Assembly (NCBI GenBank): GCA_902530985.1
Contig: CACACI010000013.1
Coordinates: 1-32,223, forward strand
DNA from: an uncultured Alphaproteobacteria bacterium
Lineage (GTDB): Bacteria > Pseudomonadota > Alphaproteobacteria > Methylaequorales > Methylaequoraceae
Reading direction: 5' to 3'
DNA length: 32,223 bases
The translations under genes and the position numbers were made by a program. The notes below the pieces were generated by a model. That model was not told the origin of the DNA. It saw only the letters and a program-made list of their open reading frames with translations, and made no database searches. Of this stretch, positions 28,283 through 32,190 are shown in pieces (positions within the stretch are counted from its first letter, which is position 1; each line of letters opens with the position of its first letter).

Positions 28283-29196
28283 TCTTTTTTTTTATTTTTT
28301 GAATTTAAATGTTCCTCAATTGCACCAATATCTTTGTCTGAGAGATTAAGTTTTTCTGATAATAATTTTAATTCCTCTCTTTCTTTATGATCTATAACGT
28401 CGTCTTCTAACATAAATTTTAATTTATCTTCATATTTTTTTTGATTTCTTCTTGTAAACTCTGTAAATGCTGAAGCCATTATTCCTGCTGGCAAAGCAAC
28501 TGTTCCAATACCTAAAATTATACTTATTGAGCCAAACATTTTACCTATAGGAGTAATAGGATAAACATCGCCATATCCAACTGTTGTAAGAGTTACTAAG
28601 GCCCACCACATAGAGTGTGGAATACTTCCAAATTTTTCTGGTTGTACATCTTTTTCAACTAAATACATTCCACTTGAAACAATAATTAGTGCTATGAATA
28701 ATAAAAAGAATGCAGCACCGAATGATCTTCTTTGATCCCATAGCACAGATATTAGACTATTAATGGAACCTGAGTATCTTGAAAATTTTAAAAGTCTAAC
28801 AATTCTTAATGCTCTGATAAAGCGTAAATCAATCGAAGGTATAAACAAGGCTATCAAACTAGGTAAAATTGCAATAGCATCAATGATAGCTCCAAAACTA
28901 AACACATAATTTATTCTTTGATCAAAATCACTTACATTTTTATTTTTTTCAGTTACACACGACCAAAGTCTTGTAAAATATTCGATTGTAAATATAAAAA
29001 CTGAAAAATATTCAAAATAAGTAAAAATAATTTCAAATTTATTGTAAATAGAATCAACTGTTTCCAAAATAACTGAGAAAACATTTAATGTTATCAATGT
29101 GAGTAGAAAAAGATCAACAGCTTTGCTTAAAAAATCTTTTTCTTCGCCTGGTTCAAGTAACTCCCAACATCTAGATCTTATTTTTATATAATTAAT
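28279..29196 (-). CDS. voltage-gated-type potassium channel (6TM), probably starting at ATT
   Basis: Selectivity filter TLTTVGYGDVYP; S4-like RFIRALRIVRLLKFSRY. In-frame codons upstream of the called TTG (29097) encode NYIKIRSRCWELLEPGEEKDFLSKAVDLFLLT and reach ATT at 29194-29196, with AGGAG 7 nt upstream. Confidence 0.85.
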   Translation of the reverse strand: MNYIKIRSRCWELLEPGEEKDFLSKAVDLFLLTLITLNVFSVILETVDSIYNKFEIIFTYFEYFSVFIFTIEYFTRLWSCVTEKNKNVSDFDQRINYVFSFGAIIDAIAILPSLIALFIPSIDLRFIRALRIVRLLKFSRYSGSINSLISVLWDQRRSFGAAFFLLFIALIIVSSGMYLVEKDVQPEKFGSIPHSMWWALVTLTTVGYGDVYPITPIGKMFGSISIILGIGTVALPAGIMASAFTEFTRRNQKKYEDKLKFMLEDDVIDHKEREELKLLSEKLNLSDKDIGAIEEHLNSKNKKKD

Positions 29197-29214
29197 ATTC
29201 TTACTCCTGGAGTT

Positions 29215-29502
29215 CTATTTCTTAGGGCATGTGATTTCTTTTTGACAAGTATTGCCAGGAGAACCCAAATATATTTCTTTATCCTTTGCTCCCTTTTTTT
29301 GTGATTGGTAGGTACAAACCACGTCACCAGGAACTTTTTTTTCACTTTTCAATCTACATTTCGGTTGTATTACTATTCTTTTTCTTCTGTCAAAAGTACC
29401 TTCTTCTGGGGCATAAGTTCTACCTTTGGATTTTGGTAAAGATTCCAGTAAAGTTGGTGTTAAAATAACTGAGATTAAAATAAGATTAAGAATCTTCCTC
29501 AT
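29215..29502 (-). CDS. small secreted Cys-containing protein of unknown function
   Basis: Preferred ATG at 29502 gives signal-like MRKILNLILISVILTPTLLESLPKSKG, then four Cys. The ORF-track start (29595) would overlap the previous gene extensively. Confidence 0.65.
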   Translation of the reverse strand: MRKILNLILISVILTPTLLESLPKSKGRTYAPEEGTFDRRKRIVIQPKCRLKSEKKVPGDVVCTYQSQKKGAKDKEIYLGSPGNTCQKEITCPKK

Positions 29503-29728
29503 TTGAATTTTCTTTACTCTCTGCATTTTCATCATCTTTTTTAGGTTCATCAGTTCCAGGAAGGTAAGCTGTTCCTTGTATAGACTTTGCAACAAATTTA
29601 TTCATTAATATTTCTGAATTTTTGACATAATCCTCAAGTCCTTCTTGCAGAATTTTTTCAGCATCTTCTTTATCTTTTGCATCAATCTCAGCAACACCAT
29701 CTATGATCCAGTGTACCTTAAAAATCAT
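29486..29728 (-). CDS. conserved-looking 80-aa protein with acidic tail, unknown function
   Basis: MIFKVHWIIDGVAEIDAKDKEDAEKILQEGLEDYV..., acidic C-terminus. ATGA overlap with the upstream gene. Confidence 0.75.
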   Translation of the reverse strand: MIFKVHWIIDGVAEIDAKDKEDAEKILQEGLEDYVKNSEILMNKFVAKSIQGTAYLPGTDEPKKDDENAESKENSNEEDS

Positions 29729-30375
29729 TTTTCTTCCTTTTTTAAATTAAAATACACATCTTTAGTATATATCTCATTAGCTTGTTGCTGAATATCTAAA
29801 ATTTTTTTTTTTTCAATTAGTTCTCCAACTCTATCTCTAATTTTCATTGCTTTATAAACTCCTGCACTTACAGATACAGAATACCACAAGTATGATTTTT
29901 CAAAATCTATTTCTGGAGAAATTTTTTCATACCAATAACCTAACTTGAATGCTGCAATCTCATCATTTTTTTCAACATAATCATTTTCTAAAATTTCTGG
30001 AATAATCTTAGAAATTTTTATAAACTCTTCCTCATCTAATTTAGCTTCTATATTTTTAATTTTTTTTAAACATTTTTTATTACCATTCAAGCTACATAAC
30101 CAGGTATATTGCAATGATTTACTAAAATCTTGAACTGTACCAATTCCTTCATAATACATATTTGCTAAATTATAAATTGCATCAATATTGCCTTTTTCTG
30201 ATAAATTAAAAAAAACAACAAATGATTTTTTAAACTCTCCATTATCATAGAAGTTAACACCACTTTTATAATAACTTTCATCACTCAGGTTAGGTTCAGT
30301 AATATTTTTATGATCTTCAGCAAATACTAGGAAGGTTGATAGATTAAGAATAATTATAAAAAAAAATTTTTTCAC
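29725..30375 (-). CDS. secreted Sel1/TPR-like repeat protein
   Basis: Signal peptide MKKFFFIIILNLSTFLVFA; SEKGNIDAIYNLANMYYEGIGTVQDFSKSLQYTWLCSLNG Sel1-like repeat. GTG start, GTGA overlap with the upstream gene. Confidence 0.82.
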   Translation of the reverse strand: MKKFFFIIILNLSTFLVFAEDHKNITEPNLSDESYYKSGVNFYDNGEFKKSFVVFFNLSEKGNIDAIYNLANMYYEGIGTVQDFSKSLQYTWLCSLNGNKKCLKKIKNIEAKLDEEEFIKISKIIPEILENDYVEKNDEIAAFKLGYWYEKISPEIDFEKSYLWYSVSVSAGVYKAMKIRDRVGELIEKKKILDIQQQANEIYTKDVYFNLKKEEK

Positions 30376-30838: not shown

Positions 30839-31111
30839 ATGAATCAAAAGCCAAATATCATAAAGTTCCCTTGTGTAGTTGATAAACGAAAAAGAAAAAT
30901 GGTTGAAATAAGGGATGAAATTGAAAGAATGTTGACGAGATTTGCAATTGATCAAGAAGATTTATGGGCTGTGGCACTTGCAGCAGGTAGATTTGCATCA
31001 ATCAACTTAGAAAAGTTTGATGGTGAGGAACAAACAATCAATTTCTTTAAAAATTGTATAGATACTCAGAAGCAATACGAATTAACCAGAAATTCTTCCA
31101 ACATTACCTGA
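30839..31111 (+). CDS. small conserved-looking protein, unknown function
   Basis: 90-aa ORF MNQKPNIIKFPCVVDKRKRKMVEIRDEIERMLTRFAIDQEDLWAVALAAGRFAS..., start in a divergent intergenic region, convergent overlap with a bactofilin. Confidence 0.7.
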   Translation: MNQKPNIIKFPCVVDKRKRKMVEIRDEIERMLTRFAIDQEDLWAVALAAGRFASINLEKFDGEEQTINFFKNCIDTQKQYELTRNSSNIT

Positions 31112-31399
31112 GATTTGAGCCCCAGTATCCACAGAAAGTGAATTAGTTTTTAGTTTACCATCAATAACACCTTTATTTGAAACTTCTAATAAATCTGCCG
31201 TAATATCACCATCTACTTTTCCTTCTACCTTTAGATGTTCAGCATTTATATTACCGTTGAATAAAGCAGTTGGTTCAACTATAACAGATCTAGCAACTAC
31301 ATTACCTTTGAAGTGACCAGCTATTACAACCTGTCCATCTTTTGATTCAAGTGAACCTTCCATTAGAAGGTCTTTATTTATATAAGTTATATCACTCAC
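31082..31399 (-). CDS. bactofilin (polymer-forming cytoskeletal) family protein
   Basis: MEGSLESKDGQVVIAGHFKGNVVARSVIVEPTALFNGNINAEHLKVEGKVDGDITADLLEV beta-helix repeats. GTG start, AGGAG 7 nt upstream. Confidence 0.92.
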   Translation of the reverse strand: MSDITYINKDLLMEGSLESKDGQVVIAGHFKGNVVARSVIVEPTALFNGNINAEHLKVEGKVDGDITADLLEVSNKGVIDGKLKTNSLSVDTGAQISGNVGRISG

Positions 31400-31419
31400 T
31401 TTTAATCTCCTAATAGCTA

Positions 31420-31788
31420 TTAATCTTCAGAACTCTCATCATCAGAATTTTTTTTATTTTTAAGTTTTTTTTCATCCCAGTTGTGAATAATCTTGCAGTT
31501 TAGTGCTGCACCTCTATCCATTTGAAGAGATTTATAATTAATCTCACCAGTAATAACACAAGAATCAGTTAACCATACTGAATCTGCTTTAATTTTTCCT
31601 TGGTAATTACCTGAAATAACAACAAGTTCTGAAATTATTGAACCTTCAAGTGAGGCAGCTTTTCCAAGAGTTACTTTTTCAGATTTAATATCAGCTTCCA
31701 CTCTCCCATTGATTTCAATTGTTGAAGCATTTGATATTTTACCTTTAAAAATTGCACCCTTACCTATTATTGATTGATTATCTGCCAT
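31420..31788 (-). CDS. bactofilin family protein
   Basis: IGKGAIFKGKISNASTIEINGRVEADIKSEKVTLGKAASLEGSIISELVVISGNYQGKI. Confidence 0.92.
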   Translation of the reverse strand: MADNQSIIGKGAIFKGKISNASTIEINGRVEADIKSEKVTLGKAASLEGSIISELVVISGNYQGKIKADSVWLTDSCVITGEINYKSLQMDRGAALNCKIIHNWDEKKLKNKKNSDDESSED

Positions 31789-31791
31789 GCA

Positions 31792-32190
31792 TTAAGTCCC
31801 CTTTGATTTTTTAATAGTTTGCTTATCCTTAACTTTTTCTTTTTCAAGACCTCTAAATAATTGAACCTCTAATTTTGCGCCTGGTTGAGCTCTTAGATTG
31901 TTGTAATACATATTACCCTTAATGTTAGCAGCTGACTCTATTGCAAGTGAATCTGCAAAAACGTCTCCTTGAAAATTTCCTCCAATGATACATTCAAATG
32001 CTTTAATATTTCCTCTCAAATTTCCTTCAGATGATATACTCATATTTTCGCATTCGATGTTTCCTTTAACTTTTCCTTTTAAAACTAAATTACCACTACA
32101 TTTTATGTTACCACTAATTTGCATTTCTGTTCCAATCACACTTGATGAATTGGATGATTTTGAAGGTTTATCGGAATCTCTGGAAAACAT
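31792..32190 (-). CDS. bactofilin family protein
   Basis: SVIGTEMQISGNIKCSGNLVLKGKVKGNIECENMSISSEGNLRGNIKAFECIIGGNFQGDVFADSL. Confidence 0.93.
   Translation of the reverse strand: MFSRDSDKPSKSSNSSSVIGTEMQISGNIKCSGNLVLKGKVKGNIECENMSISSEGNLRGNIKAFECIIGGNFQGDVFADSLAIESAANIKGNMYYNNLRAQPGAKLEVQLFRGLEKEKVKDKQTIKKSKGT

Follow-up and report, generated by a model that had tools for sequence, protein, structure and literature searches.

A probable AUU start, conserved behind a Shine-Dalgarno sequence, in a voltage-gated K+ channel gene from uncultured marine Alphaproteobacteria

We analysed a stretch of 32,223 nt (here called the window) from the draft genome of an uncultured alphaproteobacterium (G000; 1.12 Mb in 45 contigs). 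A gene on its minus strand very probably encodes a 305-residue voltage-gated K+ channel that is translated from an AUU codon at positions 29196 to 29194; the AUU would serve as an IF3-dependent brake on synthesis. The position of the start, its frame, its conservation and its Shine-Dalgarno sequence (SD) were established by comparison with related genomes, and together they give AUU a high probability of being the channel start. The channel gene appears to be a new member of the rare class of genes that begin with AUU or AUA.

Results

Start region of the channel gene

The channel coding sequence extends from 29196 to 28279 on the minus strand and comprises 305 codons from the AUU plus a stop codon. 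In the channel frame, the minus strand reads TAG AAC TCC AGG AGT AAG AAT ATT AAT TAT ATA AAA ATA AGA. The SD, AGGAG (29204 to 29208), is separated from the ATT by the 7-nt spacer TAAGAAT, and the in-frame TAG (29217 to 29215), which is the stop codon of the upstream gene, lies 18 nt before the AUU. No ATG, GTG or TTG occurs in this frame between the TAG and a TTG at 29097 to 29095, which is the first such codon and lies 33 codons past the ATT. An earlier reading of the window, made from its sequence only, had placed an ATT at 29194 to 29196, 7 nt after AGGAG at 29204 to 29208, and had noticed the lack of a canonical start between TAG and TTG; we found the same coordinates on the minus strand and the same frame. 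It had also pointed out that a bactofilin gene at 31399 has an identical SD and spacing, and the sequence TTAGGAG-ATTAAAA-GTG indeed combines AGGAG with 7 nt. Three consecutive bactofilin-like genes (105, 122 and 132 aa) occupy positions 31082 to 32190 on the minus strand, and the one started by GTG is the one that carries this channel-like arrangement.

The upstream gene (29215 to 29502, minus strand) is an open frame whose 95-aa product begins with a signal-like sequence (MRKILNLILISVILTPTLLES...); a Pfam search with it returned no match. The CPKK-stop with which this gene ends is found ahead of the channel in most genomes of the genus. A search of positions 28900 to 29800 against Rfam matched no RNA element, and folding at the start site was not unusual (z 0.24 and 0.02).

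Identity of the channel and its N-terminus

The domains, the selectivity filter and S4 all predict that the 305-residue product is a six-helix voltage-gated K+ channel of the Kv type. Pfam matches were obtained to Ion_trans (PF00520, E 2.3e-35), starting at residue 25, and to Ion_trans_2 (PF07885, E 4.7e-15). A sequence search of solved structures returned Kv1, Kv4 and KCNQ channels, with the KCNQ2 alignment beginning at residue 5. The K+ selectivity filter TVGYGD is present as LTTVGYGDVYP, and its V-G-Y-G-D is nearly or fully invariant across the family alignment. S4 carries regularly spaced arginines (DLRFIRALRIVRLLKFSR), of which R125, R128, R131 and R134 are invariant.

The sequence-only reading had seen the usual channel N-terminal motif upstream of the TTG, and the alignment of 22 family proteins agrees, with W11, L14, E15, P16, D21, S24 and D28 invariant throughout and R9 and L13 almost invariant. 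Its placement of the TTG inside the first transmembrane helix also holds, as the TTG is residue 34. Since Ion_trans matches from residue 25 and KCNQ2 aligns from residue 5, a protein started at the TTG would lose half of S1. An AlphaFold prediction from the 22 family sequences was of low confidence (mean pLDDT 54.5); in it, a helix at residues 22 to 46 includes the TTG residue.

Conservation of the start codon

The genomes compared are single-cell or metagenome drafts. Most named close relatives are entered as uncultured Alphaproteobacteria, under isolate names in AG- or AH-. Among the 13 genus genomes searched, 10 (different species, G000 included) contain the channel gene; it was not found in the other 3, which are drafts (62 to 90% complete), so that absence or a gap could account for them. 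All 10 lack a canonical start before S1. The sequence-only reading had named an alignment of homologous N-termini as a way of checking the start, and this alignment has ATT in nine genomes and ATA in one (L002) at the same column, each behind an SD. The GGAG core ends 6 to 8 nt before this column in 10/10 genomes, although the spacer sequence itself varies. In one of them (L007/L035) a TAA directly abuts the ATT. Over residues 10 to 33, changes at codon positions 1, 2 and 3 number 199, 87 and 386, a pattern which indicates that the codons between ATT and TTG are translated and under protein-level selection. Conserved column, SD and coding pattern thus support the original proposal that the coding sequence reaches 33 codons upstream of the TTG and starts at AUU.

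Two genomes of a sister genus (L013 and L014) have AAGGAG, 6 nt and ATT, with a TTG three codons after the ATT. Most other genera have an ATG near this position and no obvious SD, one has a GTG, and two genomes of a further genus (L023 and L024) have no clear channel start. Judged from these genomes, the AUU form with an SD appears to be confined to two genera.

Alternative readings of the channel start

Initiation at the internal TTG would yield a 272-aa channel from the first canonical start codon in frame, a codon that recurs at residue 34 in six of the ten genus genomes. It is missing from the other four, however, where the first canonical codon comes at residue 43, 74, 111 or 127 and its use would remove S1 or more. 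The TTG moreover sits in the middle of S1, has no SD in its context, and as a start would leave the invariant residues upstream of it (R9 to D28) unexplained. We rejected it as the start because it is not conserved and lies mid-S1, and consider its use very improbable. Retention of ATT or ATA at one column, together with the lack of conservation of the TTG, also makes a sequencing error unlikely. With the assembly still in 45 draft contigs, a canonical ATG could in principle have been lost from the record through an error of sequencing or assembly. This concern, already raised with the original proposal, is refuted by the independent genomes, as nine further members of the genus carry ATT or ATA at that column; the chance that an ATG was lost is negligible.

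Another non-canonical codon nearby, ATA at 29187 to 29185 or ATA at 29181 to 29179, is an improbable start. The ATA five codons past the ATT (the K-I of the N-terminus) is present in all genus genomes, but it lies about 22 nt from the SD, and only the ATT/ATA column keeps an SD spacing of 6 to 8 nt. The same ATA is retained in the sister genus (L013/L014), where it reads as an ordinary Ile codon. Stop readthrough or frameshifting could in principle fuse the channel to the upstream protein, which would fit the fact that in the window the upstream gene terminates in the channel's own frame. The relation between the two frames varies among species, however, and in L007 two stop codons stand in frame, the second of them right against the ATT. 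Relatives of the channel that start with ATG make a fusion unnecessary, and the upstream protein appears to be secreted. A fusion was rejected on the differing frames and the stop adjoining the ATT in L007, and it is extremely improbable. Initiation at the AUU is thus the reading that we carry forward.

Other AUU and AUA starts in the family

We scanned 811 kb of G000 against 1.19 Mb of a second genome, G011 (73% of G000 and about 85% of G011), and accepted 528 orthologue pairs; the scan is blind to AUU genes whose first canonical codon comes within about three codons. Most candidates proved to be conserved leaders immediately ahead of an ATG or else antisense frames; these were removed by hand. 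Four of the 528 pairs had coding sequence conserved ahead of the first canonical start, along with an SD and an ATT in both genomes: the channel, a gpgS-like gene, rpsU (bS21) and a lipoprotein gene. The spacing of the channel's AUU start recurs family-wide in rpsU (24/24) and gpgS (22/22).

The rpsU gene (G000 C7, 47104 to 47307, minus strand, L248; relatives L249 to L271) has ATT (17 genomes) or ATA (7 genomes) after an SD in all 24 family genomes, and no ATG, GTG or TTG ahead of the conserved VRDNN region. The gpgS-like gene (L106:11249-12460, G000 C9; relatives L168 to L189) resembles glucosyl-3-phosphoglycerate synthase (NF040724, E 4e-104, which is under the model's strict cut-off). An SD (AAGGAG or TGGAG) followed by ATT-TCT-GAT was found in 22 of 22 family genomes; a TAA stands directly before the ATT in three, and three others have an upstream in-frame canonical codon. 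Outside the family, gpgS was located in seven alphaproteobacterial genomes and has an ATG start in each, so the AUU looks derived in the family. The fourth gene (G000 C1, about 157276 to 158292, plus strand, L275; relatives L276 to L301) encodes what we take, from our own reading of the protein sequence, to be an alpha/beta-hydrolase-like lipoprotein. Its near-invariant leader (TTTAGAGGATATATTTATAAAATT) and the very conserved AGAGGA-TAT-ATT in about 23 genomes suggest that it probably starts at AUU, the exact start being less certain than in the other genes; some genera have ATG.

Outside the family, 10 of 44 alphaproteobacterial rpsU loci have no ATG, GTG or TTG near the start (L228, L230, L232, L234, L236, L313, L322, L324, L326 and L327). 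These loci have ATC, ATA or CTG at the expected place, mostly behind a clear SD. Non-AUG starts may be common for bS21, and their occurrence in several alphaproteobacterial families suggests that start-codon control may extend from IF3 to bS21.

Initiation machinery and genomic background

The infC gene starts with ATG in 18/18 family genomes with readable sequence (L064-L085). In most other Alphaproteobacteria examined (L057-L062, L065, L066, L069 and L086), infC begins with ATA or a different Ile codon, which served as a positive control for our start-codon method. The 3' end of the 16S rRNA (GGATCACCTCCTT) has an intact anti-SD (CCTCC), and the initiator tRNA anticodon is CAU; inspection of both thus revealed neither a lost anti-SD nor an altered initiator anticodon. 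Initiator tRNAs usually have three G-C pairs in the anticodon stem. The stem here is TCAGG/CCTGA (G000 C8, 28901-28977; G011 C1, 6895-6971), and one of these pairs is A-U in both genomes.

ATG accounts for 357 of the 410 aligned canonical starts. With only 4 of 528 pairs at AUU, a general relaxation of start choice was rejected. Any SD core was present at the usual place before 67 of the 410 (16%), compared with 18 at a background offset, and AGGAG before 17, compared with none. An SD core precedes each of the four AUU genes, versus 67/410 canonical starts (Fisher p 0.0008), and three of the four have a strong SD (p 0.0005); these p values are descriptive, as the flagging scan itself demanded an SD, although the channel and gpgS had been found earlier without that condition. 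The ATT/ATA-plus-SD layout in 10/10 genus genomes, set against the rarity of AGGAG before canonical starts, argues for more than chance. A general compensation of weak starts by SDs was also considered, and the difference between GTG/TTG (13/53 with an SD core) and ATG (54/357) was not significant (p 0.11).

Discussion

From these comparisons we infer how the AUU would be used in cells. The AGGAG 7 nt upstream would position the 30S subunit on the codon, possibly assisted by ribosomes that have just terminated on the upstream gene 18 nt away. That gene is a possible source of coupled ribosomes; the gap allows coupling and does not thereby prove it. The initiator tRNA (CAU) would pair with AUU with a mismatch at the third position, the channel would begin with formyl-methionine, and IF3 would destabilise the mismatched complex. 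The likely function is therefore a translational cap set by the weak AUU codon, IF3 and the SD: a built-in brake that would hold channel synthesis low and tie it to the state of the initiation machinery. Its purpose would be to limit a channel that is harmful in excess. Making too much of a K+ channel would be costly, which makes a fixed brake plausible.

The occurrence of the AUU device in bS21, gpgS and the channel alike may be coincidental or may reflect a small regulon. In such a family regulon, AUU or AUA with an SD would mark bS21, the gpgS-like osmolyte enzyme, the K+ channel and an envelope lipoprotein, with infC on AUG, and how strictly the 30S subunit discriminates (through IF3, occupancy by bS21 or intracellular ionic strength) would jointly set their output. 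We regard this as doubtful; were it true, ribosome completeness would be linked to ion and osmolyte balance.

To our knowledge, very few bacterial genes start with AUU, and a K+ channel with genus-level conservation is added here. The more unusual part is the pattern in one marine family, in which rpsU and gpgS carry AUU or AUA, as do the channel and lipoprotein genes of some genera, while infC has AUG. Gene callers limited to ATG, GTG and TTG shorten such proteins, as with the channel and its S1. The pattern raises the testable question of whether AUU can be a deliberate brake on particular genes, independent of IF3 autocontrol.

The textbook AUU/AUA-start gene is infC, which encodes IF3. Escherichia coli infC resembles the channel gene in having an AUU behind an SD, a weak codon read by the initiator tRNA and conservation among relatives. 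It differs in being autoregulated by its own product, whereas the gene studied here makes a channel, and infC of the family starts with ATG. In E. coli pcnB, the AUU start limits synthesis (Binns and Masters 2002, as cited in PMC13009471 and PMC1780047). That case shares an AUU on a non-IF3 protein, but it concerns another gene and lineage and is experimental, whereas ours is comparative. In Staphylococcus aureus, conserved AUU or AUA starts on infC (AUA), cvfC1 (AUU) and ccpN (AUA) reduce output and carry strong SDs (PMC13009471). The conserved codon and strong SD are shared with the channel; the lower initiation of cvfC1 and ccpN was established by ribosome profiling and reporters, and these are transcription-related genes. 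Borrelia burgdorferi pncA (BBE22) likewise has its AUU ahead of an internal start whose annotation cuts the fold short; it differs in being a lone gene backed by biochemical work and a crystal structure (PMC13398362). Control of bS21 through SD strength is known in Bacteroidota, and in Flavobacterium johnsoniae rpsU is autoregulated by occlusion of the anti-SD by bS21 (PMC9976891). There, as in the family rpsU, a strong SD stands where most genes have none, but the control is anti-SD occlusion and an AUU start is not described. Raising the amount of IF3 inhibits initiation at non-canonical codons, and also SD-less re-initiation; an SD weakens the effect (PMC2268962). SD-anchored initiation by fMet-tRNA on AUU, with discrimination by IF3, would be the simplest account of the channel start and fits infC and pcnB, the S. 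aureus genes and pncA.
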